From Telmatactis stephensoni (lineage: Eukaryota > Cnidaria > Anthozoa > Actiniaria > Isophelliidae), in the NCBI GenBank assembly GCA_029948255.1, contig JALIZF010001328.1, forward strand, positions 124,001-188,000: a stretch of 64,000 nt of DNA. Direction: 5' to 3'. Numbering within the stretch: position 1 is the stretch's first letter; each line of letters starts with the position of its first letter. The notes under the pieces were generated by a model. That model did not search any database. It worked only from the letters and a program-made list of their open reading frames with translations, and was not told the origin of the DNA. Positions 18,053 to 64,000 of the stretch are shown one piece after another. The position numbers and the translations under genes are program-made.

Positions 18053-19881
18053 TGGAACAGATGTTCTCTCACATGAATGCTGAGAAACTCTTGGAACTAC
18101 GTCTGGCTTTTAGAGAAGCCAAAAAGTGTGTCTCATCAGGTAAACTTAAGCAAACTAGCTATAAAATGAATGATAATATTATGTGACATATTGCCACTAG
18201 GTTAAAAATATTGATAACCAACTAAATCTCAGACTTAATTTTCACATTTATTTCTATTATACATACATATTCTTTGAAGCAACTATACAATATACAGGAG
18301 CTTGTTGTGTAAAGGCTGATTATTCATTTAACCACTCACTGACTCTTTGATCCATCCTTCCAGCCGTTCATTTTTTTATACATCAATATTTACATATTAA
18401 GGCAGGTGACTGCACAATAGAATATTCTATATTATTCCCCTAAACAACCCACCATACTGTATGAACGAAAAACACATTATATCCAAACCCCACTGTTCAT
18501 CTTCTGAGAAAAGTGAAATAATAATTATGATTAATCCCTTCATAAGCACTAATCACCCTCCAAACAACTGCATCACCCAGCAGCTGTCTTAAACAAATTA
18601 TGCTATATTTGCATTTTTATCATCCTGTAGTTCTAGAAAATATCCACACCCCTACCACAGAGTCAATCACCCTCTGAAACGTCCATTTTTGTTTTTTATA
18701 CAAACTCTGTAGTTTTGTTCTCTGACCTCCCCTCTCCTCTAGAGTTTATGGATATAGATTTTCTGGAACCACACATTGTCATTTCACATTCTTGTTATAG
18801 GCAAAGCATTTCACTACAGAGGGTGTGGGTGGAAAAAAAGACTGTTGATTGGTCAGAGGCAGATAAAGAATGGATATCAACGATGGACCAGTTATTCACA
18901 GATCTACTGGGGCCTGACGTTTGTGAATATACATGTGAGAATAAGACATGTGTCCTTGTACCAGACCAATTTCCATCCTTTAGGTATGTACATAGTAAGT
19001 GGGAGAAACGTAAAGCCAACCATAACCCAGATGGTGTACCTGCAACAAACACAGCCACGCCTACTGCCAACCAGAGCAAACCAGCTTGTGTACCTACAAC
19101 AAACACAGCCTCGCCCACTGCCAACCAGAGCAAACCAGCTTGTGTACCTACAACAAACACAGCCTCGCCCACTGCCAACCAGAGCAAACCAGCTTGTGTA
19201 CCTACAACAAACACAGCCTCGCCTACTGCCAACCAGAGCAAGCCAGCTTGTGTACCTACAACAAACACAGCCTCGCCTACTGCCAACCAGAGCAAGCCAG
19301 CTTCTGTACCAACAACAAATACAGCCTCGCCTACTGCCAACCAGAGCAAGCCAGCGTGTGTACCTACAACAAATACAGCCTCGCCTAATGCCAACCAGAG
19401 CAAGCCAGCGTGTGTACCTACAACAAACACAGCCTCGCCTGCTGCCAAGCAGAGCAAACCAGCTTGTGTACCTACAACAAACACAGCCTCACCTACTGCC
19501 AACCAGAGCAAGACAACTATTGGTGCAAAAAGGGCCAAGAAAAATAACAAAAGAGTGAAAGCACACCCAGATCGACTGAAATGTGGCTACCACAGTCTCA
19601 TCAGAGAAGAAAAGCTTAACCTTAAACTTCAAAACATGTGCAGCGTTTCAAATTCAGATGTTGTTGTTTTACAAAGCCCTGTGTACACTGATCCTTTAGT
19701 TGCAAGGTGTCGCCCCTCAATTACCACAACTGCCTATGCAATTGAACTTCTAATGAGGTCCTCAAAAAGCCAAAGTGGTTGTAATGATAAAGGAGTGAGA
19801 ATAGGTGATCTACAATCCTTGCCAAAATTAGTTGGAACGATGTGCATTCAACGGATATTTCTACAATTGTACACTTTGTGA
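18053..19881 (+). CDS. N-terminal part of an unrecognised (C48-peptidase-associated?) gene with repeat linker
   Basis: Two exons in phase: 18053-18139 (VEQMFSHMNAEKLLELRLAF) and 18743-19881, joined as SS-EFMDIDF. The body reads RVWVEKKTVDWSEADKEW...LFTDLLGPDVCEYTC, then nine copies of an 18-residue unit (CVPTTNTASPTANQSKPA), a basic patch AKRAKKNNKR, and a conserved-looking tail ending at a stop in 19879-19881. Just before that stop, another frame reads SWNDVHSTDISTIVHFVTVPL, which suits a peptidase-domain start, so a frameshift is likely near 19800-19850. A foldback begins 8 bp after the stop. The peptidase C-terminal half seems to lie at 26952-27293. Upstream exons (perhaps around 17016-17151) are uncertain. 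Confidence 0.5.
19033..19518 (+). repeat. Coding minisatellite, nine 54-bp units
   Basis: Units start near 19033, 19087, 19141, 19195, 19249, 19303, 19357, 19411 and 19465, with no length change, so the reading frame is kept. Inner units are almost identical and outer ones are diverged. The encoded linker is rich in Thr, Pro, Asn and Ala with one Cys per unit (Ser replaces it once). Confidence 0.95.
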
Positions 19882-24208: not shown

Positions 24209-26663
24209 TTATTTTTGGTTTTTGGGACAGTGGGTCACATTTTTATGACCTTTCATTGGCTCTCTACAAGTTCTGCATCGCCCTTCCTTTGTCGCAGTAT
24301 TGATGCCTCTTGGTTCTTCTGGCTGTTCCAAAGGGACTGAAAACAGAAAATCAAATTATGCATTGTGTTGGGCAACACAACAAAAATAGAAATGGGCTAA
24401 TAGCATTATCAAGGTGGAATTATATTTTACTTACCTTCTGCGGTTGGAGGGACTTCCTTTGTAACCATTCTCTTTCTTTCATTTCTTTTGTGCACGGCAG
24501 CTTCTTGTCCAACATTGAAACCATTGGTTGTGGAGTCATCTGTTTAAGTTCTGCTACAGCAGCAGTCAGGTCCTCCTTGCTGGATTTCAGATAGAACTGG
24601 TAAAGCTCATGAACATAGTCTAACAAAACAATAGAACATTCCAAATCACATCAGCCAATAAATATAGCTATATCTAGTGCTGAAAGCAAAGCTTTACTAT
24701 ATTAGTGTATATGGTACATGTTTGAAAAATATACTATACAAACCAAAATTCTGTTTCATCTTTACATCCCTCACAGTTGCCTCGCCATTTTTGTATTTGG
24801 GAGAGCTGACTTTGACCTTTGGTGTGCCATCTGAATATATTTTTGCTTCTCTGTGTAAATTGTAGTTGAAATGCAGTGCAGCTAGTATGTGCCTGGAAAA
24901 GATATTAAAATAATTTTCATGTATTTATGCATGCTATTCCCAAAAAGAGACAGTATAAGTCAGTAATTTAACACACTTCTGTAGAGAGTATTCAAGACCT
25001 GTACTACCAAAAACCAATGCTAATGAGCTAGTAAGTGGTTCAAGAGAGCAGTTTTTATTGACTATGCTTGTATTTATTTAACAATTACCAACATCTATTT
25101 TTTGAACTCTATCTTTGAAGGGCCTGGCGTTTGGTTGCAAGCTTTCCTTGTAAGACCTCATTCTTTCTCATAAGACTGCTCTTTGTTGAATCGGTAAGTG
25201 TTTGCACTGACTTATGTTGTACCTTCAAGAAAGGTAAGCCATTTTATCAAAGACGACCTGAATTTAGTCAGCTTAATTTGTGAAATACAGGGATTTAGAG
25301 CTGGGGGAGTTCAGGGGGTGAACAACTTGGTAACTGTTTTAACTCACCAACTAATTTCAAACTAGATTTAACCTGTGGGAGGGGACAAAATAATACAGCC
25401 AACCAAATTAAAGACAAAGAGGGGTTCTTGAACCCTCCCCCCAACATATGACATACATGACAATGATTACAGTAAAGAATTACAGCTTACATTTAAATCA
25501 AGAGTGGAATTTTGACTGTTTTTTGGCTCTTCTCTCTCCTCTACTGAACTTAGCTAAAAAAGATAGGAAAATGACATAAATGACAATGATAATTTTTATA
25601 ATTGAACAGTAAAGAATTACATCTTACATTTAATTCTAAGGTGGCATTGTGACTGTTTTCTGCCTCTTCTCTCTCCTCTATTGAGCTTAGCTAAAAAAGA
25701 TGGGCGATGTTAACAATGATCATAATAATAATAACAATTAATAATATTCAAAACCTCATCAATAATTCCACAGGCAAACACAATGGAAATCACAAGCATG
25801 AAGAATACCTTGATTCTAACATTCCTCCTAATTTAAAACTTATACTGAATTTCCTCTGAAAATATTGACAAATTTTGGATTTTTTGCCAAAAACATGACT
25901 GTTGGGTTGGAGCTGTAAAGCTGTATAAAAAAGGTGCCAGTTGTGTTTGAAGTTTGTTTCAAGTATGAAAAATATACTTCATAAAACTCTCTTGCAAAGA
26001 GTTGCTGAGTGTCCTATGCACCCACAAGGATTTTTATACACAATATAAACTTGTTAGTTGCTTACATTTTGATCAACAGTGACGTCCTGAATTATGGTCC
26101 TTCGATCCTCGCGATGTTCCACGATCAATGAACTGAGTTCCCCCTGCTCTTTGGGGACCGGATCTTCGGTAATCTTTCCGATTCTTTCTTTCACTGATCT
26201 TGCATACTTAATTAAAAATATTTTGGCAATATTTTAGTAGAATACTCGATCAAATAACTTTCAAAATGCAAGGCATCATCGCGGTGCAAGTTAGCTTTTA
26301 TAGTATGCTCACCATTCTCTTTTGTGGCTTTGTTGGCGAACCTTTGGGATGACTCTCCGCATTTCTTTTGACTTGTATGGAGGGCCAAACACAGACTCCT
26401 AGCTCATCTTCTTTCAGTGTCTGCTTTAGGTTAGAGCTGAAAGATCTCGTGAAATCGGCTGCCGTGAAGTGTACCGAGCATATGCTTGACGAGTTACCCA
26501 GTGTCCAGTGTTTCCGAGTCTGGTTTACGAAGTTTATCCATTTTCTCCTTCTACCGCGAGCTTTCGATCTATCGTCATCTTTAAACGGTATCTTGTGAAG
26601 ACTTATACCTTTTGCCTTATTCGCAGAGTTATTGCACCCGAAAATAACGCATTTTTCCACCAT
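24209..26663 (-). pseudogene. THAP-domain transposase-like protein lacking its catalytic core
   Basis: Minus-strand exons: 26663-26313, 26206-26066, 25690-25628, 25553-25491, 25222-~25116, 24892-24744, 24619-24435 and 24322-24209. Exon 1 is a THAP zinc finger (MVEKCVIFGCNN, a Trp before NFVN, CSVHF). Two 21-codon exons are near copies (LSSIEEREEAENSHN / LSSVEEREEPKNSQN). A coiled-coil exon runs into a TAG. The C-terminal exons read HILAALHFNYNLHREAKIY, YVHELYQFYLKSS and a zinc knuckle (CRTCREPMKGHKNVTHC). In relatives I recall, a GDGR-type DDE core lies between the coiled coil and HILAALHFN; nothing like it is present in 24893-25115. An internal deletion is the simplest reading. An in-frame ATG at 26726 is an alternative start. 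Confidence 0.7.
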
Positions 26664-26951
26664 TTTTTCAACTAGAACTTCATGAATCTCGAATTTTGCA
26701 GTAACAACACAATACTCCTGTGGCATGAGGTCCTTTTCTTACGTCACGCTCCATATATGGATAGCATTGGCCGAGCGGAGACTAATGCGAATGCTGGGTG
26801 AAAGTATAGGAAATACTACCTTCACTTTAGATGCGTCTCAAAAAAAAGACGATTCAAGATTTTTGAATTTTTTATAAATAGGTTCTCCAAAGATGTAGTA
26901 ATTACTAAGAAATGGCTCAATTTAGGCATTAGGGGCACTTTAAATAACAAA

Positions 26952-42408: not shown

Positions 42409-44426
42409 TTAAGACAACCTTTTTGAAGTCTTCTGTTTCTTGTAAGATATCCATGTATTGGGCTTGTATAATGGTATTCCTCTCTTTACTCTCCTAGTGA
42501 AAACGTCAGGCAAGAAAGCTCTTCGATAAAAGTAATCTACCTGAGGCAGTGCAACATCAGACCACCACTGACTGTTAAAGGGCACTCTTTCAATAAAAAT
42601 ATTTCCATGTCCAAACCATACTACAAAATCCACCCACTGCAAATTACATATGAACATTTGTCCCTGAATTTGGTAGTAATACTGGTGTGTATGCTTGAGA
42701 GTAGCACCATCTTTACATTTTGTAAGGAAAAAGTTTTTGTCTGTACAAGCTTCTTGAAGGCTTAGACCTCTTTTTGAATATGGGCATTTTACCTCAAGCC
42801 CCCCTTCCTTATTGTTAGCTTTTGGGTCATATACCTTCCTGTCAAGACTTGCTCCTAAACCTGACTTGTTTGTAGATAGTATTGTTCCAACTTTGTACAC
42901 TTTTATATCAGTGTTTCCTTCATCATATTTCTGTTTTATGTAGTCCCTCACAGCATGTTGCTCATGATTTTGCCCATAAGTGATCAAGTTTCTTTTTATT
43001 TCGTGTGGGTACATGATCGTTTTCAACAACTTATCCGGCTCCATTTGCCTTTTAGCAGCAGCATAGAAGTTGGAGGCAGTGAGCTTAGTTTGTTTAAGTT
43101 CCCTCCAAAAAGGATTTGAGCTTTGGCCTCTTGTCTTTTGTTCAATACTGAAAACAGTGGATAAATCAATTGACTCAGAACTTGCATAACAGTCCATCAT
43201 TTCTTTAAAGTGCTCTGTGCTTATATCATACATATCATTAAAAACTTGACTAGTTTGCTGGTCTTCTGTTTGGTCAAAGTAATTATCATAGCAGGTAGGA
43301 GTGAAATCAATGTCAGCAACGTTTTCCTCGATTTCCAAGTTTTCAGAGAGACCTTTTGGTTTAACATCCTCAAAGAGAAAAAAGCTTGAGGCAGCGAGGC
43401 ACTCCGATAGAGAGGATGATAATTTTTGTAGTGAATCTTGATGGAGTTGTCTATCAGAAGGAGCTCTAGGATCATAAAGGTTTATTGTTCTTCTACACTC
43501 GTTTGTCTTGCCATAGTGATATTTTTTAATAGTAAGTGCACTTAGAGGGACAGGTTCAACTTTCAAATTTCTGGGTGTATTCCACTGGCATAGTTTTGAT
43601 GTGCAAGATATAGACATATTTTGTTCCCTTAGTCCTTTCCTGCCAAAGTCTTCAAGAGCAAAGAGCAGTCCCCCAATGTGGTTGCAGTGCCCAAGTCCAT
43701 CTAATCCGGTCCTTAAATAGTGAAAAAGTAGTCTTAGTCATTATGTTAATTAGTTGAATTAATCAAAAATAAATAATCTTACCCTGCCGGACATTTACAC
43801 GCTGCCAACTTGACATTGTTTTCGTTGTCAAACGTTATAAGCACTGGATATCTATTGGCTCTCATTGAAGCTAGAATATTTGCCTTTACATAAGTAATGT
43901 CATTATTTTTGGCTACCTCAATCGATTTTATGTGGCCTTCTACAAAAAAGTTAAACGCTTTGAGCTTCTTGTAGCCACTACTCTTCACAGTATTGCTATC
44001 ATATTTTGCAGTCTTTACTACCAAGTAGTCGTAGAGCTGAATGAACGTGAACGCAGGGACATTTCTAAGATCTTTTGACCAGGTGCAACCATTTGTTTGT
44101 AAATTTAACGTTTCGTAGGTAATTTCAGAACATTCTTGTCGAGATGATTCCCCAGATTTTTCGTTGCTAGAAGGAGTTTGAGCAGAATTATTTGGCAAAC
44201 ATGTGGAACCATCGTTGTTTTCACCATCGTGTGTCGAAGCATATAAACGTAAAACGAGATTGGCCTTACTGCCTTTTGAACATTGTTTTCTCTCGAGTAG
44301 CAGAGACTTCAAAGTACTGACTTTCAAATGTCGTATTTCCTTGATATCATGTAAGAAATAATTGGTGTTGACTGCATATCTATGTTGTTTGTAAGTACAA
44401 CTCGGCGAACTCGGCAATATTCGCAA
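42409..44426 (-). CDS. SAP-SWIM-YqaJ nuclease of the ISL2EU element
   Basis: Two exons, 44426-43783 and 43711-42409, joined in phase as CKCPAG-TGLDGLGHCNHIGG. That junction completes a SWIM zinc finger (C-x-C, C-x-H). N-terminal LKVSTLKSLLLERKQ is SAP-like. The C-terminal half is a YqaJ/lambda-exonuclease-type PD-(D/E)xK nuclease: LTASNFYAAAKRQ, YGQNHEQHAVRDYI (the helix Glu), GASLDRKVYD (Asp), GGLEVKCPY (the E-x-K pair) and HQYYYQIQGQMFIC (Gln). All expected residues are present and the frame is intact, about 650 aa, unlike the transposase partner. The first Met at 44426 is the earliest in frame but not certain. Confidence 0.85.
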
Positions 44427-44525
44427 AGTCTCAACACTAGCCTCGCTTTCATGTTACTCCTGAGCCCGCAACAATTTGGCAGCGGAGAATGAGAAAACGG
44501 ACTATTTCAAAATAGGCAAACCCTG

Positions 44526-50192: not shown

Positions 50193-51352
50193 ACTATTAA
50201 TTGCATGTATGGTAGTAAAAAGTGTTGAAGTTACATGTAAATTCTAATAGAGATTTCTCATAATAGCGAGATTTTTGACGCATTTGACGCAGCTTTTACG
50301 CACCAAGTATTTACATTTGCATAACAATAATTTCATTGTACCAAGCAAACAATAACGCGTCTTTTATCTAAAGAAACTTTATTTTAATTGTTCTTCAAAT
50401 AAACCTTAACAGGATTTATATACCTAAAGTGCAAACAATAGATGAATGAATTTCTAATTCTGAAAAGATTTAAATAGTACAAAAATACACACAGTTTTGC
50501 TTTCCATGATTTGAAATATTATACTGTCCGTACTGTATCTGATGCCCATTTCAAATGCCAATTACAAACTTGAAAACATCACATGAAAAACAAACTCACA
50601 TATATAAAACTCTAATTTCTTTTTCATTGACATGAAATTTGATCATCTTATAGTAACGTCAAACATTTTTTCTTTTGAAACTAAAGATTCATAAAGTGCA
50701 ACCAATGTATTATTATAAGGAAATAAACTTAAAAGGTTCTAGCAACTATATACTACTTTATGAAAAACAAAATCACATATTTTTTTCCATCCTATCCAAC
50801 AGTCCTTGCATTCTTCAGTCCGGAACTCTCTCCAAATCTGGAGATGCGGCTGACGTCACGAAATCTATTGTTAAACACGAATTTCCCGCGAAATGGCGAC
50901 GAAGCGAGACTCGAACGAATATTTTTACATATCTCGGAAATGTTTCGTATTTTCCGACAATTTATCGATTGGCAAGCTTCAGCAAGGATTCATCTAGCGT
51001 GTAATCAGTGGTTTGAGGTTGTTGAAATGAAAATTTAAGCAAAAAGAAGATTCTATGTCCTTGGATTGACGCCATGTTGGGTTTTGATATTAAGGTATGT
51101 AAAGGAATGTACTTATTTTTCCTAGTATATCGATTTTTTCCGAGAACAATAGTATTTTCCCCCCAAAGTTGAACATGTGTAGAGACTATGTGAGAAGTTT
51201 CAATGTGGTAACTTTTCTAGTATTTTGGTAACCTTTTGCTAAATAATGTGGTTCTGATGGGTACAGATGGCTGGTCATCATCGTTACGAAAGATCTTAAG
51301 CTTTTGAGAAAGCTTACCATTTCTTGTCGATTTTATTATTTGCAGTAAGCAT
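50193..51352. other. Upstream region of the RAG1-N-like gene
   Basis: No recognisable exon. It should contain the promoter, and perhaps the left end, of the element carrying the next genes. No terminal repeat was identified. Confidence 0.4.
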
Positions 51353-54300
51353 ATGGATAAACACAGAGAGGTTTTAAGCCAACACTGTAGGATTTGTGGC
51401 TCCGATCTGTGGAACGACAAACGAAAGTGTCCGGCTTTGGATTTGAAAAATTACATTCAAGCCACTTGGTTAGTAAATGTCTTACTAGATTCACCAAATG
51501 TTCACCCTACGTATGTTTGTGTTAACTGTCGACTGATCTGCAACAAGAACCAGAAAAGCTCTGAAGAAAATAAAACCTACAAGACTCGTGTTCCTTGCGT
51601 AGAATGGAAGCCCCACACTTTGGAAAATTGTTTTGTGTGTTGTCTAAAGACAACAACAAAACGTGGCCGGAGACTGAAAAAAGTTAGAGGGAGACCAAAG
51701 AAAGTCAGGAAAGAGAACGTTGATTCTTCAGTCCCTGCGACACATTCAGATACTGATAGTGACAATGAAGATGATGTAGGCGAAACTTCAACGTCTTGGA
51801 CAAGAGTTTACACTATCGACATGGAAAATCTTGGTGATTCTCTTGCCAAAATCCCACAAGAAGATCTCATACAAGTCATTCATCAAATCTGTAATTTAGA
51901 ACTGGACTTAGTACCACTTTTGGTAAGGTTATTGTCAACAGAGAAAAAGGAAGAGATGTTCAAACTTCTGAGTGAGCAATTTGGTGAAAAAGCCACAGAT
52001 GCTGAGCTTGTCAGAAGTATTCTCAGGAAAGAGGTAAAAGATATCAAGGAAGACATGTCCATTATAGGAGAACAATACAAAGATCCTAAAGTCATCAAAG
52101 ATCTGAATCCAGAGATATGGTTCTTGAAGAGAAATGAAGTTGTGAAATCTGTTATTGAAGGTCTTGTTCCTCAAAGAGATTCAAGAAGTTGGTTTCAAAG
52201 GTGTATTGCTCTAGAACACTTGTATTCTCTAACAGGCAGTCCTCTTGTGGCTCCATTTAGTTTTTCAACAAATGTTGTTATCTTGGCCAATACAAATTCA
52301 AAGACTGCTGTGAATTTAGTAGCAAAGAGTCTTCCAGGTGGTACATACACCACACTTAAATCATGGATGAAAAATTTGACAAACACTCCGTTGACATTTC
52401 CGAGTGGAAGCTGTTTAGTTGCCATAGACAATGATCAAGTCGTTCCAAAGAAATGGAAAGTAAGAGTTCGTCAAAAGGCTCGTGTGAGTGTTGTCACAAG
52501 CATGTGCCAAGCAGAGGTTGATGATGATGGTGCAGTACAAAGACAGGCAGACCTGGCACCCAGGTATGTCATCTTCCATTATTGTCACATTTATCATTTT
52601 AGGGATTCTCTTTCCAGGTGGCCAATTTTTATTAAGTTATGGTCCAAGTAAGAACGAGGCAAGTGCCGCCTATATTTTACCTCTTACCGCCAGTTATTTT
52701 GTGCCCCCAGACCCTCCTAGAAAACGGGGTCTTTCAGCCCCATTTGGGACACAGACACCTACTTCAATCACTCAGATGCTTATTCAAAAAGATAATGAAA
52801 CCCCTGTGAAGACAAAATGACATGGCTTGCCAGTCAACAGTTTGAGTAGATCTTTTGATGAAGTGTCACCTGACCAGGTCATAATTGAACAAATGTGCAC
52901 ATTGATTGTATTATGGTTTCATTGGTAAGTAATATTGTCTCCAAATTGTATTCTTTTAGAAACTGGACATTGAATATGTCAGACAGCAAAAAAAATGATT
53001 TCAGAATAGCTACAGAAGCTGCAGTTGAGTATTCTCCTGAATCTGAGAGAGTGATAAGAAAAGAGGTAGGTTAACCCATGAGGTCAATCCCTTAAAGCTC
53101 ATGTCTTCTGAATTCAGAAAAGAGTTCATAAGCTTGCAATTAGGTCAACAGCCATTTCCCGAGATACAGTTGAGGTATTCCTGTAATAAAATTGAGTATG
53201 AAATAAAATGTCTGTTGGCAATTTGGAAGATATAGCTAATTCAATTAACATTGTCACTGAAAAAGCCTAAAGCTTTGAGAGCGGAATCATGACAAATTTT
53301 TATCACCGTGACAAGAAACTCACTATATGCTTGACAATTCTACAACCTGGACACATATTCCTTAATTCTTAGATAGCCTACAGCGAAAGTTTGTTAGTAA
53401 ACAAAAGATAGTTGAAAGCCTTTAGCCTTTAGGCTTTTTTCAGCGACAACGTTAATTGAAATAGCAATATATATTATGTCAATCTATTTCACACAGTTTG
53501 AAATTAGTGTTATTTAACTTGTCTGCTTTCACTTGCAGAATAAACGTGTGATCCATCAGTGCTTAGAAGTGGTTGTTTCTGAACAAATGTTAGATTCTAA
53601 TGGCTCCTTAACCGATGACATTGATGGCAAAGTGGATGAGATAAAGAAAAAAGCAGAAAGTCGTACATGTCCAAACTGCAAAACTGTAATGCCTAAAACC
53701 AAACGAAAATGTGTTAATCGAGATTGCCAAGTGAATTTGAAGGCAGCGGAAAAGGAATTGTCAGGTCAGGACATTTTGGGTACTGCTCTTGTGCAACCAG
53801 CTAGACAATTCAACTATAGATTCCGAGAAGATGAGGTAGTTATAAGTGTTAAGACAAATGATGACAGTTCAAGTACCATCTCACAGAAACGTGTTACTGT
53901 ATACCAAGAAAACAAGCCAGAGTGGGAACATGTTCCTAGTGGTCATGCAAAACACCAAATAAAGATAACTGTTTCTGATCCTGTCTTTGAAAATCCAGCC
54001 ACCTATGAAGCTGTTCAAGATGTCCTGAGACATGTTGGCCACGTAGCAAAAATATCAAGATATGGTCATTTTGGCCCTGATGCCAGAGAATGGATTTCCA
54101 TCACTATGGATGGTCTACCATATGGTCTTGCTTCTGGTGTTATTGATAATACCTTCATTTGTGTGGTTTGTCATCAGGCAGATAAGAATCCATGTTCCTT
54201 TTTCAAGAAAGATTGGGAACGACATGTTAAAGAGTACCATAACTGTCAACCAACCAAGGTCAGAGAATTTGATTGGGTTGTATTGAGGATCGGGCCATTG

Positions 54301-54956
54301 CATATGGAAATGAATATGGTGAAGACATTCTTCAGGATCAACTGGGATGTCTTCATCTGTTCGTTGGCACAGGAGATGGGTTTCAACAGCGACAGTGCAC
54401 TGAAGTATGCCAAGAAGGCTGGAAACCACCACCAGGCAATGGAGATGTTGGAGATTCTGCAAAAAGGCTGCTGGATGGAGCTGCTCCTTCCTTATGTAAG
54501 ACAAAGAATGACAGAGAAGAAGCCACTTTCAGTAAATGATTTTATATACCAGTGGGCAAAGGAAAGGGAAGATGTGAACTACGTCTACCTATTTGAACAA
54601 GTAAGCTATTTACTCTTTGAGGATGTACTTATTAGCATTGTTTTCCTTCAACTTGAGCACATATCAAGTACCATACATATACCTATTTCAAAAAGCATTG
54701 TGTACACTCCAAGACTGCAAACCATTTTGGTAGTTTTCTAGTAATTTATGTAATCATAGCATGTTTTGGTTACAAAAATAATGTGAAAACAAAAGGCATA
54801 ATTGCTCATAATGCTTGCTCCACAAGGAAACATCACCCAAGGAAAGACAATACTGAATAGATTAATCAAAAGAAAAACTGCCAAAATGCTTTGCAGTCTT
54901 GGAGTGTATAATGTGCACTTGTTGCAACATTTTTTTAATTAGGTCTATAATTATTG

Positions 54957-55145
54957 TGGCATGGTTGGCCTACTGGTGAGAGCACTGTCCATTCACTGGT
55001 ATGGTCTGGGTTCAAGTTCCAGCTCATATTTGAACTGGATATTCATACAATGTCATGTTCATACAATGTCATGTATTGGTAAACTAAGTAGCCACTACAA
55101 AATTTCCCCTACAGAAAATGCTAAATTTAGTAGTCACTATAAATA
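54957..55145 (+). mobile_element. tRNA-like SINE in intron 3 of the RAG1-N-like gene
   Basis: TTGGCCTACTGGTGAGAGCA at about 54966 fits a pol III A box and GGTTCAAGTTCC at 55009-55020 a B box, about 33 bp apart as in tRNA-derived SINEs. Tail ends uncertain. Confidence 0.6.
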
Positions 55146-55634
55146 GCAACCTTAAAGTATTATCAAGCAAACAGAGTCTGTGTGCTTGAGAAATTGTTAA
55201 TAAATTGCTCTTAATCTAATTGTGGATGTCAGTTATATGAACTTTGATCTTTTATTAAGGTTTGGAGATATGTTGGTGCTATCAAGGTGTACCACATGGG
55301 TGTAAGGAGGAATAACAGTTCCTACATAAGAAGTGGAATGTCTGCCTTTGCTCCAGCCTTCAGTGTTCAACCATTTACCTCGAAGTATCAACTCATTGAA
55401 CTTCGTGATACGTATGTTTAAATGTACTTCTCTTGGTAGCAGCTAAATGACATGTGTGATTGATATAAATTCCTTAATGTTCCATTATATAATAACTATA
55501 TTATAGAACATGGAGGCATTTACATTTATTTAAAAGATACACCAAATTAGGTACCTGTACACAGCTTTGTTTCCATGCTGTAATTGATTTCAGAAGAGAT
55601 TCAATGCCCAATGATACAATGTCAGAGGGTTGTT

Positions 55635-55700
55635 TTCCAGACATAAACACTACAACTAAGGGGGGAATTCCAGACATAAACACTACAACTAAGGAGGGAA
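55635..55700 (+). repeat. 33-bp direct repeat, two copies
   Basis: TTCCAGACATAAACACTACA... occurs at 55635-55667 and 55668-55700 with one substitution. Lies in intron 4. Confidence 0.9.
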
Positions 55701-57361
55701 TGGTGGAGCATTTGTTATAAAATGCACCTAATTTGGTACACAGTTTCATTTCAGACAGATTGCTCAGTGATGCAAGGTCAGGAAGGTGCTTTTCAAAAAA
55801 TCCTGATTACATATATAAGGACAAAAAATGTTTGATAATTATTTTTAACATTCCTTTAATTATGTTGTTAACCATTTCAGTCCAAAGTATACGTAAGATC
55901 TGTGACTATAAAGGGTACACTGATCTAAATGGAACACTGCCAAGTAAGTTTTATAAATTATTTTAAATCTTTAATCTACAGATGTGAACGTGCCTTGTAC
56001 CCTCCTGAATTAAGTGATTTTGCTGAAAAAACTGAAGCAGTTTCTACTTCTGGAAATCCCTCAAAAGGTGAAGGAATGGATGCTTAGCTAGAGGAAATTA
56101 ACAAAGACTCCAAAACATGGGAACATGGAACAATGACTGCCAAAGACTGGCTTACGGTTTTCAGAAACCATGACAATTTAAATGAGGTAAACTTCTAGTT
56201 GTATAAAATACATGCAAAGCCTCAGCAGCAGTAATACTTATATTAAACACTTATAGCTATTGTCTCCTCAGCCCTTGTAAAGAGTTCAAGTGCTTTTAAG
56301 TCATGTACACATAAAAAGTATCAAGACACATCAGCTGCTGCTGATGAGAATGACACTCGAAACATGTACAAATTAAAACAAAATGAAGTACCAACTTAAA
56401 AGTGTCATCTCTTCAATCAGGAGTGTAACAAGACCATTCATTTCATTTTCAATTTTTCTACAGCTAAGGGCACAAGCATTCAAGTGGAACCAAATGGTGG
56501 ATCCAAAAAGTACTGCAGAGCTGACTCCAACAAGAGATGACCTGTCCGATGAAATACTTGCATGGCAGGTAAAGTTAAGGAAGGAAAGGTAATTTTCACT
56601 GTATGTTGTGTTAGATGATTAATATGTTGACTTGAATAACTTTAGAACTTAAACTACTACTGGTATCAGGTTTATTGCAGACCCTATGCTGCCTGTAGTA
56701 TACCTAATGTTACTGTATGTGTTGTCAGTAAGTGTGCAATTATTGCTGCAGATCCCCTCAGCTTACACTATTGTCTTTGTATAAGAAAACACAATGATCT
56801 TCAGGCAATACTGACTGTACAGTATGTGTTTCAGCAATATTTAAAAAAAGGAGCTTTACTATTAGCAAGTAGTGAGTTCTGTTTTACTTTCAACAATACA
56901 GACATCCATGTAGAGCAGAGAAAATTGAATGATACTTTTTTGTTAACAGGTACCTGATGCAATCTGATGACAAACAAGCAAGTCATGTTTCTCTGACCAA
57001 CCAGCCACTTGACAAAGATTTGTGTAATATGACTGAAACTGCAACACAAAACAGAAAACTTGTGTACGAACAGGTGATTTGTGGTATCAAAGAAAGAAAA
57101 GACCTCCCACTAAAGAAAGTCTTTACGACAGAAGAAGAAAGTAAAAAGGCTAGTGAGATTGAAAATATGAAAAAAGCAGAGATTATTGCAAAGATAGAGA
57201 GTCTGATGACCAATGATGTTCAAGGAAATTATACTGAAAAGTTTGAAATGCTAAAGAAGAAAAAAGGAAAGAAGAGTGACTTCGTAGAGTTGTATTATAT
57301 GGTTTTAGAAGAGGTAGAGTTCTCCTCTGGTGACAAAGAAGAGACAAACCAAGAAGACTAA

Positions 57362-57836
57362 TGATTTTATTGAACTTCACTTATGAATATTTTAAATAAT
57401 TACACTGTTGATTAAATATCCTCTAAAGTCTTGAGGTCACTTATGACTGATTATTTATTTTTGATTGGTTAGGTATTATTTAATGGTTATTGCCTAAATC
57501 ATTAATCATTGTTATAAATAAAACACAGTGTACATAAAGTATTCAGTAGTAATAATTTAAGGTATTAGAATCAAAATGGCAATCAGAATATGAGAAATAA
57601 TTGATGAATTGAGCATGAGGCAATTTCCACTTTGCTCATTTAAAATTGATATGTGCATCAAAATTAAGTCACTAATTAGGATTTCTAAATGAAAATTAAT
57701 GGTTTTGAACAGGAACATATCAGTACCATAAATTAATTATGGCTGGCTTGAATTTTAGAACAGTCATGAATAAATCTTCATTTACATCCATGCACCAACC
57801 ATAATGTATAGTGTATAGGGGTAGTGATCAGTTCAT
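57362..57836. other. 3'-3' spacer of two convergent genes
   Basis: AT-rich. Contains AATAAA-like signals (for example TAAATAAAACAC near 57515). No gene. Confidence 0.5.
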
Positions 57837-58484
57837 TTAGCTGTCATTAATGTCAATTTCATCGTTTACAACTTCAGTTCCCAAAAGTACTGGAGCTGGT
57901 TTGTTCGCCAAAACTTGTTGGACGCAGTTAGGTATATTTTGAGGCAATTCTAGAGCTCTTCTTGACTTGGACAAGCCCACAATTTTAGAAATCTTATTGT
58001 TATTACTTCCTTTACTGCTTGAAGTTGAAGGACTTGGGGTTAAAGTAAGAGGCTCGACAACGGCTCCAAGACTAGAAGAGTGATTTATTGTATCCGTGCT
58101 GCTCTCGTGTTGGTTGCCACCACTCGCGCTTTGTACCACAGCTTCAGCTCCTTTTGTTACACCAATTCCTGTAACATATTCCTCTCGAAGTTTCCCTGTA
58201 GCATAAAATTTCCTTTTGTTTGTTACATTATTATGTAAAACAACCATAATATCGGCCCCGGTCATGGCATTCAGTTTAAAAGCGGCAGAGAAAAGCGATT
58301 TAGACCTCTTGCTTAGGCATTTGCAACGTTTTGAAGGATCTGCAATAAACTGTATATCTTCTGGACATCTTGGTTTTGGTTTGGATTTTGCTTTAGTTTT
58401 TTGCGGGGATACGGAGCTTTCAGATCTAGCAGTTTTTTCCATAATATCACTTTTAAAGCAGAAATTATGCTTCAAAATGATCAT
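57837..58484 (-). CDS. MADS-box-like DNA-binding protein
   Basis: Single-exon frame of 215 codons; the ATG at 58442 (MEKTARSESS) is an alternative start. Residues about 48-110 read DPSKRCKCLSKRSKSLFSAA, FKLNAMTGADIMVVLHNN, then NKRKFYATGKLREEY. This fits the MADS/SRF pattern of a basic helix with KR-x2-LF, an alpha helix ending in a hydrophobic beta strand (ADIMVVL) and the following FYATGKL strand. A Lys/Pro-rich N-terminus and a Ser/Thr-rich tail flank it. MADS domains bind CArG-type sites as dimers. It lies 3' to 3' with the RAG1-N-like gene and 5' to 5' with the HIRAN-like gene, so it may be the regulatory or end-binding factor of the same element. A host transcription factor is the alternative. 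Confidence 0.6.
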   Translation of the reverse strand: MIILKHNFCFKSDIMEKTARSESSVSPQKTKAKSKPKPRCPEDIQFIADPSKRCKCLSKRSKSLFSAAFKLNAMTGADIMVVLHNNVTNKRKFYATGKLREEYVTGIGVTKGAEAVVQSASGGNQHESSTDTINHSSSLGAVVEPLTLTPSPSTSSSKGSNNNKISKIVGLSKSRRALELPQNIPNCVQQVLANKPAPVLLGTEVVNDEIDINDS

Positions 58485-58734
58485 GGATAGATTTTTATCG
58501 ACCCATCCGTTTCAGCGAACATTTCCGCTCCAAAACAATGGATTGACCAATGAGATGAGACCGTATATGAAAACTGACCAATAAGATCGTAGCATTGTAA
58601 GAGGAAACCCCTTCTCCATTTAAGCTTTCGCGGCAAACACCAACACGTGTGCAATCGCTTGGGTTTAAGAACATCGCTATTCACAATCTAAAACATTTTT
58701 AGTCATATCAGAGTAATATTTTTACAGCGATACA
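58485..58734. promoter_or_regulatory. Shared divergent promoter of the MADS-like and HIRAN-like genes
   Basis: Only 250 bp separate the two start codons. GACCAATGAG (about 58546) and GACCAATAAG (about 58577) are two CCAAT boxes about 30 bp apart. No obvious TATA box. Confidence 0.5.
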
Positions 58735-60495
58735 ATGGCTAAACGAGGTAAGAATAACAGAGAAAGTGTATTTTCATTCACTCACTCGTTTAAACCCCGT
58801 TAATTTGCAAATCAAAGACGAAATCCTCCCTCTGTTTACCATGTTTACCATTCGATAATACCTATAGGTGCTGAATCAGAACCAGAATTGTCAAATGCAG
58901 AGTTTGTGGTAGTATCGAACTGTTTTATTAAAGGGTAAGTATTTATCTTTGTTGATAATCTGCCTATTTGTGTGTTATAAATATAAATCATCCAGTTTTG
59001 ATGTAGATCTGTTGATACATGATACCAACTACACTGACCCTTAAAACACCTCCAGAGCTTGTTGTAAATCTTCCTGGTCCATTTCTTATTTTTTAGTTAC
59101 CATGAGTTTGGAATAAAACTCCCAATTGATTCACATGTCAATGTACACCGAGAAGCTGTTGGCCAGGATCCGTATGCACTACTTTGTGTGGTACCATCGG
59201 ATTTGAGTGATGAAATACTGAACACGACCATGCACAGTAAATCAAAAAAGAAATTTTACAAAGTAAGAGATGTGGTAGGGAAAACTGTGGGTCGTGTTCA
59301 GTATTTCCTGAACAAGGTTTTTGTAAGCCTGCTTGACGAGGGAATGGTGACCGAAATCCAAGGGTAAGTCACAAATAGTTTATTTGAAGGAGGAGCACTC
59401 CAATCAGAAACAGCCAGTGATGCTTGTCATACCTTTTAAGGATGAAAATCAAGGATCTTTTACCTTTAACTGTCTTTAGTTTAGTACCAGAAACTAAGCT
59501 GCTACTTTTTAGGGGTTTTTTTTTGGCGCTGGTCAAATAACCATTGTGTACTGTCCCCCTCCCTCCTCGCAAATTCTTCTTCTTCCATAAAAACATTTTG
59601 CTCATGCTCTGTTTTTGGATTGGTACCTTTTAAGGTTGAAAATATATTAGTGCTGCATCCACCAGAATAAATCTGAAATCTTTTGGGGGTCATTTGAAAA
59701 TTTCCTCTAACTTATATATGGGATCCCCAGAACAGCCTTCTATGCTTTCAAAACATTTAAAAAATCAGTGTATTGAATTATATGTATTAAGTAAAACCTT
59801 ACATGATTTTAATTTCACTTTTAAGAATAATCACTGGAGAGGAGACTCAAAGCAAAGTACCACCTCAACAACGATGGCAACGAAATGTTCAAGCTGGTGG
59901 GGGAGCTGTAATTCCCTGTTCTTGGCAGCTAAAGGTTGCTGGTAATGATCAGGTGCAGCAAGTTATTGACAAGGTGATGGATGGCCTGCCGCAAATTGAG
60001 GGAGGTGATTCCATCACAGTCAGAAAGGTATAATTTTCAGATTCTACTTTTATTAACAAGTGATGAAAGACTTAATATACAAAATATTTTAAAATGGGAA
60101 GCAAGGGTGACCAGGTCTATTACCTATGGGTTGGCCATCACAGGTAGCTCAAGGTTGTTAGTGTATTTTCTCTGTTGGTACTATGGATTTCTACCAACAG
60201 TATAAATAACTGTTAGTGAGATGAAAGATGTATGCATAGAATATTATTATCAGAGCAGTTTTTGTGTGAGTGGGATTTTTGAATGTTTCCATAGAAATTA
60301 GGGCACTGGCATGGTCACGATAAAAGTACAGTACAGTCAGTTTCCAACTCATACAAAGCTGCTCTATGGCAGTGACAGCCAAGTAGAAGTCCTTCCACCA
60401 TAAACAAGTATTTATTATATCCTACATAATATTGATTTCATTTTTTTATTTTTAATTTATAGATGACAACATACAAAAAGCCAAGGAAAAATTAA
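58735..60495 (+). CDS. HIRAN-domain-like protein
   Basis: Five exons, all in phase: 58735-58747, 58868-58934, 59097-59363, 59826-60027 and 60463-60495, giving 193 aa without a lesion. Sequence order fits HIRAN: FVVVSNCFIKGYHEFG (the gYH strand), VNVHREAVGQDPYALLCVV (RE...DPYA), VGRVQYFLNKVFVSLLDEG, IITGEE and GGAVIPCSWQLKV. HIRAN domains recognise 3' ends of single-stranded DNA and are found in Rad5/HLTF helicases. Here the domain stands alone with a short basic tail (TTYKKPRKN). The first exon codes four residues (MAKR). Head-to-head arrangement with the MADS-like gene suggests co-regulation. Function in transposition is inference. Confidence 0.65.
59370..59705. repeat. TACCTTTTA(A/G)GG-type repeat in intron 3 of the HIRAN-like gene
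   Basis: Several TACCTTTTAAGG-like motifs (59432, 59460, 59626) and ends GGAGGAGCACTCC... / ...GGGGGTCATTTG. A related copy with TACCTTTTAGGGG lies at about 60740-60905. Probably one non-autonomous repeat family. Confidence 0.5.
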
Positions 60496-61160
60496 ACACT
60501 GGTCCGGCTTCCATTGAACTTAGATCATTCTATATATTATAAAGAATGTTTTATCTGTTGCAATAGAAAATGTAAGATAAATACTGAGTAATACTACTTT
60601 TGAAAGATCAGCCTGGGTACTGAAAACAATAAATTGATATAATTACTTTTTTTGACATGTGATCAGTTTCTTTCTTCCCTACCTGTGAGTTGAGCATTCT
60701 ATGAAGAATTTATAGAGTAAAGTTAATAGTGGTACTGTCACTGTTTGACCCTGGGGGAAACTCCCTGATATAAGAGGGCAAGGATGCTCATTCTACCTTT
60801 TAGGGGTCAAAATCAGTGTTTTGGTACCTTTTAGGGTGTTAATGAGCAGATGCTCATATTAAATGGGTACCTTTGTTGATGCAAAAGTCCCCCAAAATGC
60901 CAAGCTTGATGGAAATTCATTATTTAAAACACTTTGTGGATTACATGAGAACAAAAAGCAGCGAAAATTGCATGCAGATGAAGAATCACTAATTTAAGTG
61001 GATAATGCTGTTGATGCATATTTTTTATAAATGACTTAGTATTAACAGGGGATAATAACAACAGAAAAATATGGATGGAATTATTAGATTTTGACATTAT
61101 GTAAAAAATATGATTACACTACTCTCCTAGAAAATGTGAACATTTCATCAAAGATACTTC
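60496..61160. other. Spacer between the HIRAN-like gene and the IS3EU-type transposase
   Basis: Contains the 60740-60905 repeat (TACCTTTTAGGGGTCAAAA). No gene recognised. Confidence 0.45.
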
Positions 61161-61179
61161 TACGATGGCCCACAAAGCT

Positions 61180-61340
61180 CACAGTCCAGTTAGAATTTTC
61201 ACAGTCCAGTTTAGTTTTTTCACAATCCAGTTTAACTTTTTCACAGTCCAGTTTAAGTATTTTACAGTCTAGTATAGTTTTTTTCGCCGCAGTTTAATTA
61301 TATTTTTGACAGTCTAGTATTTTTTTTCGCAGTCCACTAG
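61180..61340 (+). repeat. Phased 20-21-bp repeats (ACAGTCCAGTTTA...)
   Basis: ACAGTCCAGT-type units start at 61181, 61201, 61222, 61243 and 61264, with weaker ones at 61310 and 61328. Spacing is close to two helical turns. Position upstream of the transposase suggests subterminal binding sites of the element's left end. Confidence 0.8.
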
Positions 61341-61403
61341 TTGTTTTTCCGTTAGCCTACCACAGGAATCCCATATCTCTAGATATCAGTCCCCAACGCC
61401 GTT

Positions 61404-61410
61404 TATATAA
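61404..61410 (+). promoter_or_regulatory. TATA box for the IS3EU-type transposase
   Basis: TATATAA, 83 bp upstream of the ATG at 61493. Confidence 0.6.
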
Positions 61411-61492
61411 GCCGCCATATTGATTTCGTAGTTTGAAAGAGTTGTTGTCTCTAGGTACGTAGTTCTTTTTTTTTTTAAATATCACTGTAAGA

Positions 61493-62677
61493 ATGTCTAC
61501 AACAGGAACCACACAAATTGAGAATGACTTGATTTCGGATTATTTCCATAGTGGATTTACCTATTTAGAAATATGTGAGTTTCTCAAACTTTATGGAATA
61601 TCAATAAGTTTGTCTACACTGAAGAGAAGATTGAAAGAATTAGGATTGACGAGGAAGGACACCAGTTTCATTGACGACGAAGAACTAAAGGTGGCAATAG
61701 AAGAAGAAATATCTGGCAGCGGTTGTTTTTTAGGATATCGCAAGGTCTGGGCAAGGCTGAAAAAGAAAGGCATTTTAGTCAAGAGAAGCAGAGTTATGAC
61801 CTTGCTAAAACAACTTGACCCTGAAGGTGTTGAAAGTAGGACGAAGAAACGACTTCGAAGAAGATTATATCATGCTAAGGGACCTAATTTTGTTTGGCAT
61901 ATTGATGGACATGATAAGTTGAAGCCATATGGGTTCAGCATACATGGATGTATAGATGGCTTTTCCAGAAAACTTTTATGGCTGGAAGTTGGTCCATCCA
62001 ATAAAAACCCAGAAATAATTGCAAAATATTATCTTGATACAGTTCAAACCCTAAGGGGTGTCCCTGAAAAAGTTAGATCAGATGATGGAACAGAGAATAG
62101 CATAGTTGAAGCCATACACATATTCCTCAGGGTTACCCATGGTGATATAGATTCTGCTCTTGGTTCCTTCCTTATTGGTAGATCGACATCTAATCAACGA
62201 ATTGAGGCATACTGGTCTCAACTTGTGAAAGATGGACCTGGATGGTGGATACAATTTTTCAAAGATTTGACAGATATTGGACTCTACAATAGCTCAGATC
62301 CTGTTCACACTGATTGCATCAGGTTTTGCTTCATGAACATTTTGAGAAATGAGTTACATGAAGTTGCCGAACTTTGGAATGAGCATATTATTTCTTCCAG
62401 CAAATTTGGAAATGCTAACTTACCTAGAGGAAGACCAGACACTATGTACTTTCTTCCTTACCTCTATGATACCAGTGACTACAAGATAGCCACAAATGTT
62501 GATGATGTCCAAGAGTTTGTTGATAATGCTACAATGTCTCCAGATGACTACAGCAGAGATTTTGCAGAGTTTGCAGAAATTGTCATGACAGAGCATAGAC
62601 TTGATCATCCAAGGAATGTCAAAGAAGCACTTGATCTTTACATTTGCCTTATCAAAGAAGTTGAAATGTTCACATAA
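61493..62677 (+). CDS. Intact IS3EU-like DDE integrase/transposase
   Basis: Single 394-codon exon. The N-terminal 60 residues form helix-turn-helix units (FTYLEICEFLKLYGISISLS, TLKRRLKELG), as in IS3-type proteins; a second HTH-like segment GYRKVWARLKKKGILVKRSR spans residues 81-100. The rve-type core has Asp138 (FVWHIDGHDKLKPYG), Asp197 (VRSDDGTEN) and Glu238 (SNQRIEAYWSQL), a DD40E spacing. CIDGFSRKLLWLEVG is the characteristic core strand. Retroviral-integrase-like fold with no reverse transcriptase nearby fits the IS3EU superfamily of DNA transposons. No stop or frameshift, good TATA box, phased repeats upstream: the best candidate for an active gene in the window. The right terminus was not found. 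Confidence 0.85.
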   Translation: MSTTGTTQIENDLISDYFHSGFTYLEICEFLKLYGISISLSTLKRRLKELGLTRKDTSFIDDEELKVAIEEEISGSGCFLGYRKVWARLKKKGILVKRSRVMTLLKQLDPEGVESRTKKRLRRRLYHAKGPNFVWHIDGHDKLKPYGFSIHGCIDGFSRKLLWLEVGPSNKNPEIIAKYYLDTVQTLRGVPEKVRSDDGTENSIVEAIHIFLRVTHGDIDSALGSFLIGRSTSNQRIEAYWSQLVKDGPGWWIQFFKDLTDIGLYNSSDPVHTDCIRFCFMNILRNELHEVAELWNEHIISSSKFGNANLPRGRPDTMYFLPYLYDTSDYKIATNVDDVQEFVDNATMSPDDYSRDFAEFAEIVMTEHRLDHPRNVKEALDLYICLIKEVEMFT

Positions 62678-62680
62678 CAT

Positions 62681-63385
62681 TTAACATGACCAACTGTTTA
62701 CCTTACTGTAGAAATTCAATGTAATCTATAATTCTGAATTGCCCCACACTGACAAGCTTGATCATGAGTGATTGAAATATAATATACTTTTTGTGTTCTT
62801 AATTATGCTAGATTAGCCTCAAATATATACTTAAAATGAGAATTGGAATAGGAATCTCCAGAATCTTCATTTGTTTGCAAATATATATACGGTATGCAAG
62901 TTCACAGAATATATCAAGGTATCACAGCACAATGAACAAGAATATCGTAGGTTTCTCAATATTGAAGGTAATTTTACCAAGAAAATAAAAAAGGCAGCAG
63001 CTTAAGGGCTGCTTGAGGGACTTGTCCAAAATTAGCAGGGAAGGGCCGGGGTGGAAAATTAAAAGTGGGCACTGGAAATATGGTGATCTAGCAGAGCAGT
63101 GGGAGTAAATTTTCTAACACTTACCTTGTTAGGACAAAAATATGACCCTCCCCCCTCCATCTTAAAGCCCTTTTTTTTAACCTCCCTATTCAGTATCGTA
63201 AAATATTAAGACCCTCCCTATGTTTCCAAGCCCCTCCCCCTGATAATTTCTGACCAGTTACTAATCAAGATTACACCAACAATTACCAATGAGATTGATA
63301 TAAATGAACAAGAAACAACTTTTTATTTGAAAATGGCATGGTAAAAGAACTCAAGTGAACAAACATTAAGTGGACAAACCTTAAA
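62681..63385. other. Downstream region of the transposase
   Basis: No gene. 63120-63240 holds two related CCCTCCC-rich segments (ATGACCCTCCCCCC and AAGACCCTCCCTATG). No clear transposon end. Confidence 0.45.
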
Positions 63386-63568
63386 ACAGGGGCAGATCAA
63401 GGAGGGTGAATTGGGTGGCTAGCCACCCCCTTCTTTCATAAGGAATAAAAAAAGAAAAAAAAACAAATTGTTGCTTTAAAAATGTTATCATTTAAAAGGT
63501 ATACTATTACCATAACTAAAATATTTTTAGCTAGCCACCCCCTTCCAAAAATCCTGGATCCACCCCTG
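63386..63568. mobile_element. 183-bp hAT-type MITE
   Basis: CAGGGGCAGATCAAGGAGGG at the left. The right end reverse-complements to CAGGGGTGGATCCAGGATTT, and TAGCCACCCCCTTC occurs near both ends. CAGGGG termini fit hAT elements. An exact 8-bp TSD is not visible in the A-rich flanks. Confidence 0.75.
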
Positions 63569-64000
63569 AAAAAACAAATAACTTAAAGTACCATATAAGC
63601 ATGATAACACATTTATGCAGTTACAGCAAATTAAGGATAAAACAATCCTATGTACCCCAATCATGAACTGCTTATGTGGTGAAAACAGAACAACTGCATC
63701 AACAGTGGTGAACTTTGATAACTATGTATAGCTTGTCTGAGCTTGGTAAAAATAGTTTACATGTATTAGAAACCTTGCAAAATTAAAATCTATACTTATA
63801 AAAATAGATTTTGGTTAATATTCCAACAGTAAAAAGGCAAATCAGTACAACTGTACAACTAAATATAATTGCTTTGCTGAAATAAACAGCACAAAGAACA
63901 CAAATTGTCCTGAATGGTGGGCAGTATAGGAAAAGGTGCTTGAAAGTTGGATTTCAAAGTGACCCAAAAATATATACATGCATGCAAATATTTGTTAAAA

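Follow-up and report, generated by a model that had tools for sequence, protein, structure and literature searches.

Three adjacent genes on one contig of the actiniarian Telmatactis stephensoni raise the question of whether they are neighbours by accident or parts of a single mobile element, and, if the latter, what kind of element they form. The window, as we call the whole stretch that was analysed, comprises 64,000 nucleotides (C632:124001-188000, here numbered 1-64000) of a 483.5 Mb assembly, and it holds a large gene whose protein begins like RAG1, a MADS-like gene and a HIRAN-like gene. An earlier note on this DNA proposed that the three make up one undescribed element spanning positions 51353 to 60495. 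We find that the trio is part of one cut-and-paste DNA transposon of ~11 kb that moves as a single unit; the proposed span missed both ends, the left one lying at 50816 and the right one outside the window. Our overall reading, to which we assign a probability of roughly 0.87, is that this transposon encodes three proteins, that the large one acts as the transposase and that, with less weight, the other two act as its helpers.

Ends, target site duplications and empty sites

We placed the left end at window position 50816 (CAGTCCGGAACTCTCTCC) because three shorter copies (C96, C298 and C1100) start there: their sequence begins at window positions 50811-50816, and they share a deletion that joins position 51502 to 58805/58811. 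In C298, C96 and C50, the right flank carries the left-end sequence inverted. The C50 copy (1201913-1212866) is complete, with a length of 10,954 bp, inverted repeats of ~57 bp that begin CAGTCCGG and pair at 56 of 57 bp, and the target duplication ATTAG. Searching the genome with the end pattern returned 20 places (19 exact, one with two mismatches; reversed control, 0), of which 14 form seven pairs, and all seven pairs are bounded by exact 5-bp duplications (TTCTT in the window, ATTAG, AAAAA, ATCAA, ATCAC, CTAAT and TTGAA). When a divergent copy on C443 is included, exact 5-bp duplications are present in 8 of the 8 copies with both ends read. The common termini that the earlier note had envisaged were thereby recovered: in the window copy, in C50 and in C443, the inverted repeats and 5-bp duplications lie such that none of the three genes is cut off from the others.

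Matching empty sites were found for both copies with a search result. For C298, the joined flanks with a single duplication form a 45-base string that occurs exactly (45/45) at three other places, and the target may therefore itself be repeated. For C50, the corresponding 41-base string occurs at one place (38/41), where 183 bp spanning the junction are 94.5% identical, and it is therefore the whole three-gene unit that was inserted. The ends, the duplication length and the empty sites together show a cut-and-paste type of insertion with a 5-bp stagger. The short copies C96, C298 and C1100 are nonautonomous internal-deletion derivatives; C96 and C298 have different target duplications, and C1100 has a different left flank. 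That these derivatives carry a common junction at different sites implies movement in trans.

The right end of the window copy, at C632:191430, lies 3.4 kb past the window edge. Consequently, a scan for inverted repeats within the window alone found none above shuffles; a self-comparison of the window against its last 16 kb returned two short intron hairpins and nothing else. The window copy is 16,615 bp long, ~5.7 kb more than the C50 copy, and it departs from that copy at position 61160, so that an rva_4 element is nested in the transposon (Table 1). The locus on C213 shares both its right and its left flank with the window locus and is most likely its other haplotype; it carries a deletion of the left end together with the beginning of the large gene. 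Between the HIRAN match and the right end there are 2,720 bp in C213 versus 2,726 bp in C50, which indicates that C213 is without the rva_4 insertion. The rva_4 element and its 21-bp array (61161-64000 and on) thus look like a polymorphic insertion, likely absent, by distance, from this other haplotype.

Table 1. Features of the transposon copy in the window
Feature	Window position	Strand	Remarks
5-bp target site duplication TTCTT	50811..50815		second copy at C632:191431-191435, beyond the window
Left terminal inverted repeat, ~57 bp	50816..50872	+	first bases CAGTCCGGAACTCTCTCC; right partner terminates at C632:191430, beyond the window
Large gene, 8 exons	51353..57361	+	RAG1-type N-terminus; transposase-like core with distant resemblance to DUF6589; exon 6 holds one in-frame stop
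MADS-like (SRF-type) gene, single exon	57837..58484	-	profile and chain matches
HIRAN-like gene, 5 exons	58735..60495	+	exons 58735-58747, 58868-58934, 59097-59363, 59826-60027, 60463-60495
Non-coding right part, ending at the nested insertion	60496..61160	+	final ~620 bp with the right inverted repeat outside the window
Nested later insertion, not the element's own	61161..64000		rva_4 integrase ORF (open reading frame) 61463-62677; 21-bp repeat array 61179-61336; ~5.7 kb total by length difference

Co-occurrence of the three genes across the genome

We quantified how often the three genes travel together by matching the large protein's exon 4 (n = 50), the MADS-like protein (n = 21) and a homolog of the HIRAN-like protein (P0013, used in place of the window protein; n = 67) to the genome. 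The tally took 28 of the 50 large-gene rows, omitting 22 further fragments of those loci, all 21 MADS rows and the 67 HIRAN rows merged into 47 loci, and counted neighbours at distances of up to 12 kb. All three genes are found within 12 kb of one another at 10 loci (C632, C213, C50, C279, C443, C179, C369, C199, C293 and C584), and at 10 of these 10 the order is the large gene, the MADS-like gene on the opposite strand and the HIRAN-like gene on the first strand, as one would expect had the three been rightly joined into one mobile element. These are not ten independent insertions: besides the two likely haplotypes of the window locus, C369 and C199 agree at 99.9% over 3.8 kb and C279 and C443 at about 96%, leaving at least seven if each of these pairs stems from one insertion. 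A HIRAN match lies within 12 kb at 15 of the 21 MADS loci, head-to-head in all 15, compared to a chance expectation of ~0.05. Twenty sampled 10-kb stretches of the genome contain little that resembles the element.

The copy on C443 (10,544 bp) belongs to a divergent relative, with 54% protein identity to the window large protein in exon 4, 29-bp perfect inverted repeats starting CAGTCCGGG, the duplication TGTAA and a retained RAG1 N-terminal match (E = 3.4e-9). The main family and C443, the two families whose ends were read, have in common the gene set, its order, the first eight end bases (the CAGTCCGG ends) and the 5-bp duplication. Across the relatives that keep the gene set, order and orientation, identity is 50-58% for exon 4 of the large gene and 34-46% for the MADS-like protein. 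The motif TGACGTCAC is found close to the left end both in the window family (50851-50859) and in the C443 copy (L057:393-401), in differing surrounding sequence. The stretch L057 has an open frame that continues from its start into the C443 copy's left end (L057:1-576) and resembles Suv3_N weakly (E = 0.041); this copy may have landed in another gene.

The large protein

The exons of the large gene (51353-52563, 52618-52647, 52960-53065, 53539-54600, 55260-55411, 55982-56186, 56464-56588 and 56950-57361) all have GT-AG borders and splice into one frame of 1101 codons. The gene models that had been called fully spliced are sound in this respect, but the single in-frame stop in exon 6 of the window copy had gone unreported. 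The stop is absent from the exon-6 piece read in the C50 copy, where exon 4 is split between frames; the C266 copy is out of frame in the exon-6 piece read, and it ends inside the MADS gene because the contig ends there. In the pieces read, no copy with all three genes intact turned up. Two hairpins lie in the region of this gene, one in an intron (54703-54908; arms of ~55 bp, TA-flanked) that resembles a mariner-type miniature inverted-repeat transposable element, and a further short one at 53230-53470.

Exon 1 matches the Pfam family RAG1_imp_bd (E = 2.6e-9) and, when searched by itself against the sequences of solved structures, retrieves mouse RAG1 (E = 2.6e-5), while the family profile of the large protein does so at E = 8.9e-12, with the match confined to the N-terminus. 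The zinc-ligand motifs and the profile match of the RAG1 N-terminal (Chapa) domain are both present; the match is strong, and it bears out what had been proposed for the start of this protein. A search of 5.8 billion proteins returned 12 homologs, of which Branchiostoma contributes five, Ruditapes, Holothuria and Amphiura one each and sources without a name the other four. In a tree, the window protein groups with the five amphioxus proteins (100/100), and the clam (Ruditapes) protein, which also has a RAG1-type start, sits on a separate branch. The RAG1-type start is therefore not restricted to one branch; in several other homologs the N-terminus is cut short or unmatched.

Among the aligned rows that hold the residue in question (P0001 numbering), D343 and H643 are invariant in 11 of 11, with an alignment gap at H643 in two rows, and D610, C627, C630, H648, E659, H671 and E673 are invariant in 13 of 13. 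The order D..D..C(2)C..H..H..E is thus present and invariant, with closely spaced zinc pairs and putative catalytic residues. Crude secondary-structure propensities, on which we do not rely, place a strand before D610, another near 664-668 and a helix at E673. We take this protein to be a probable DDE transposase on the strength of its RAG1-type start and of the acidic residues that are conserved in the alignment.

The MADS-like and HIRAN-like proteins

The MADS-like gene is a single minus-strand exon that runs from 57837 to about 58442 or 58484, and an open frame as long as its 224 codons would arise by chance with a probability of ~1e-7 per frame start, given the local base composition. Its protein matches the SRF-TF profile with E = 6.8e-6 to 8e-6 and, among solved chains, SRF with E = 0.012 and MEF2A with E = 1.6. 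The profile match is moderate: the MADS-like identity put forward in the earlier note agrees with both searches, yet the score of 25.9 bits falls 0.1 bit under the cut-off of 26. No homolog was found at E = 1e-3 among the 5.8 billion proteins. On C369, the 130-aa ORF on the MADS side does not match SRF-TF; its genome match spans query residues 60-191 only, and it is a partial relative. CArG boxes were considered as MADS targets and rejected (10 found versus 5.65 expected, with 7 of 100 shuffles reaching 10). At C84:375029-380900, three MADS-like ORFs of the element's family stand within 6 kb, the closest HIRAN match being ~13 kb off.

The five exons of the HIRAN-like gene splice cleanly and encode 193 aa. 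The gene itself is conserved, but the Pfam HIRAN match is weak: it is seen in 2 of 3 family members, and its E of 0.0021 does not reach the cut-off. No HLTF chain was found, and the C369 exon does not match the HIRAN profile. Two homologs, both environmental, were found among the 5.8 billion proteins. Scans of viral and prokaryote contigs for all three proteins, and of plasmids with the homolog P0013, found none.

Weighing the explanations

If the large protein acts as proposed, its RAG1-type N-terminal zinc domain would make protein contacts or dock onto DNA, and an RNase-H-like DDE core (D343, D610, CxxC 627/630, HxxxxH 643/648 and E673) would cut both ends and attach them to phosphates of the target spaced by 5 bp. 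We put less weight on the helper roles: the SRF-type MADS protein may bind DNA near the ends or in the ~250-bp head-to-head promoter, tuning expression, and the HIRAN-like protein may hold 3' single-stranded ends or aid the repair of integration or excision gaps; both suggested roles are drawn by analogy from the known activities of SRF and HLTF HIRAN.

Several results weigh against this reading. In sequence searches, the catalytic core of the large protein matches no solved transposase, the RAG1 core included, and its Pfam match, to DUF6589 in exon 4 (E = 4.5e-4), is below the family cut-off. The CxxC (627/630) and HxxxxH (643/648) pairs are merely 12 residues apart and resemble an ordinary C2H2 finger, and the same crude propensities give no clear strand before D343. 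Six of the 20 end sites (C213, C266, C694, C729, C1100 and C114) are without a partner end. The earlier note had itself named large-gene copies consistently lacking partners as the outcome that would speak against it, and while the trio is found at 10 loci, 12 of the 28 large-gene loci show no MADS or HIRAN match within 12 kb, five have HIRAN only and one has MADS only; 27 of the 47 HIRAN loci likewise have neither other gene at this distance. Some of these partner-less loci may be accounted for by fragments and by how far the search could reach.

Three ordinary host genes that became neighbours by chance would account for the introns, the small spacers and a window that, by itself, has no inverted ends above chance, but the ends, the duplications, the empty sites (that of C50 included) and the same trio at ten loci make this explanation close to negligible. 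Alternatively, the transposon and its large transposase may be real, with the MADS-like and HIRAN-like genes captured from a host and playing no role in movement. The derivatives C96 and C298 moved though they lack the MADS gene and HIRAN exon 1, so that neither gene is needed in cis, and many HIRAN loci stand alone. Movement in trans would, however, account for the derivatives, and the set, order and orientation are kept in the relatives with the identities given above, which suggests selection to retain all three genes; we regard capture without a role as unlikely.

The trio might also have arisen when a RAG1-N-type transposon recombined with a separate HIRAN/MADS element, as could be read from the loci with MADS and HIRAN matches but without exon 4 of the large gene at distances of up to 12 kb (C101, C138, C661, C93 and C685). 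We consider this highly improbable, as a single inverted-repeat pair surrounds all three genes in C50, the window copy and C443, and a repeat scan around the MADS and HIRAN genes of the window found nothing above chance. The three-gene transposon that we favour combines a front half like that of RAG1 with complete ends, a defined set of genes and 5-bp joining of the RAG kind, and it is amenable to tests in cells. To our knowledge, it is the first transposon with MADS-like and HIRAN-like accessory genes; among the matches listed in open-licence literature there was none.

Other features of the window

Elsewhere in the window, an ORF at 42409-43737 matches viral alkaline exonuclease/YqaJ (E = 2.5e-13) and adjoins a 224-aa ORF without a match (43779-44453). 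There are also ORFs matching DUF7869 (9584-10621; E = 1.6e-20) and a THAP domain (26298-26738; E = 7e-12), and a 54-bp unit is repeated nine times in tandem (19027-19511) inside a 414-aa ORF.

Comparison with known systems

The element works like a Transib/RAG-type or CMC-type transposon. Its ends (CAGTCC..GGACTG) and 5-bp duplication agree with the CA..TG ends and 2-5 bp duplications that passages of PMC12730594 give for the CMCT group (CACTA, Mirage, Chapaev and Transib). For these four and for RAG1, the same source describes the pattern D, D, C(2)C, H(3-4)H, E, which the order of conserved residues in the large protein resembles, though with zinc pairs that are closely spaced. It shares with ProtoRAG/RAGL and Transib the N-terminal zinc motifs described for RAG1 and RAGL (PMC7204232) and the 5-bp target duplications described for RAG-type transposons (PMC8355894). 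It differs from them in a core without a match to the RAG1 core, in the presence of MADS-like and HIRAN-like partners and in having no RAG2-like gene seen among its three. Ends of the RAG/Transib type carry a CACAGTG-like heptamer, whereas those of the element (CAGTCCGG) are not of this kind. Because a RAG1-core-like transposase was looked for by sequence and not found, we do not file the element as Transib, even with its 5-bp duplication. Eight of the 14 family members of the large protein that were scanned match DUF6589, a family of no known function, weakly (E up to 1) and below the cut-off wherever bits are shown. An assignment to Academ was dropped for lack of evidence.

Chapaev transposons are described as carrying a Chapa zinc domain, which passages of PMC4411706 equate with the RAG1 N-terminus. 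The element resembles them in its RAG1-type N-terminal zinc domain and its CA..TG ends, which, like the D..D..C2C..H..E pattern, are features of the CMCT group at large, and Chapaev is, judged by its description, the nearest described carrier of a RAG1-type N-terminus. Likened here by description only, the two differ in their target duplications, which are 5 bp in the element versus 3-4 bp in Chapaev.

N-RAG-TP of Aplysia is described as a mobile element with a protein resembling the RAG1 N-terminus (PMC8355894, PMC2996935), and the large protein has a bivalve homolog in Ruditapes; the element may belong to the same family. One view derives the front half of RAG1 from N-RAG-TP, on which the passages cited say little (PMC8355894, PMC2996935, PMC13337447). 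We give even odds to the element representing a separate DNA transposon superfamily, marked by a RAG1-type N-terminus, a core not recognisably Transib, target duplications of 5 bp and a pair of conserved helper proteins, one an SRF-like DNA binder and the other a HIRAN-like end binder. Were this so, the RAG1 N-terminus would be part of an old group of mobile elements whose joining chemistry is RAG-like, and the superfamily would be a candidate for the donor, or the sister, of the front half of RAG1.

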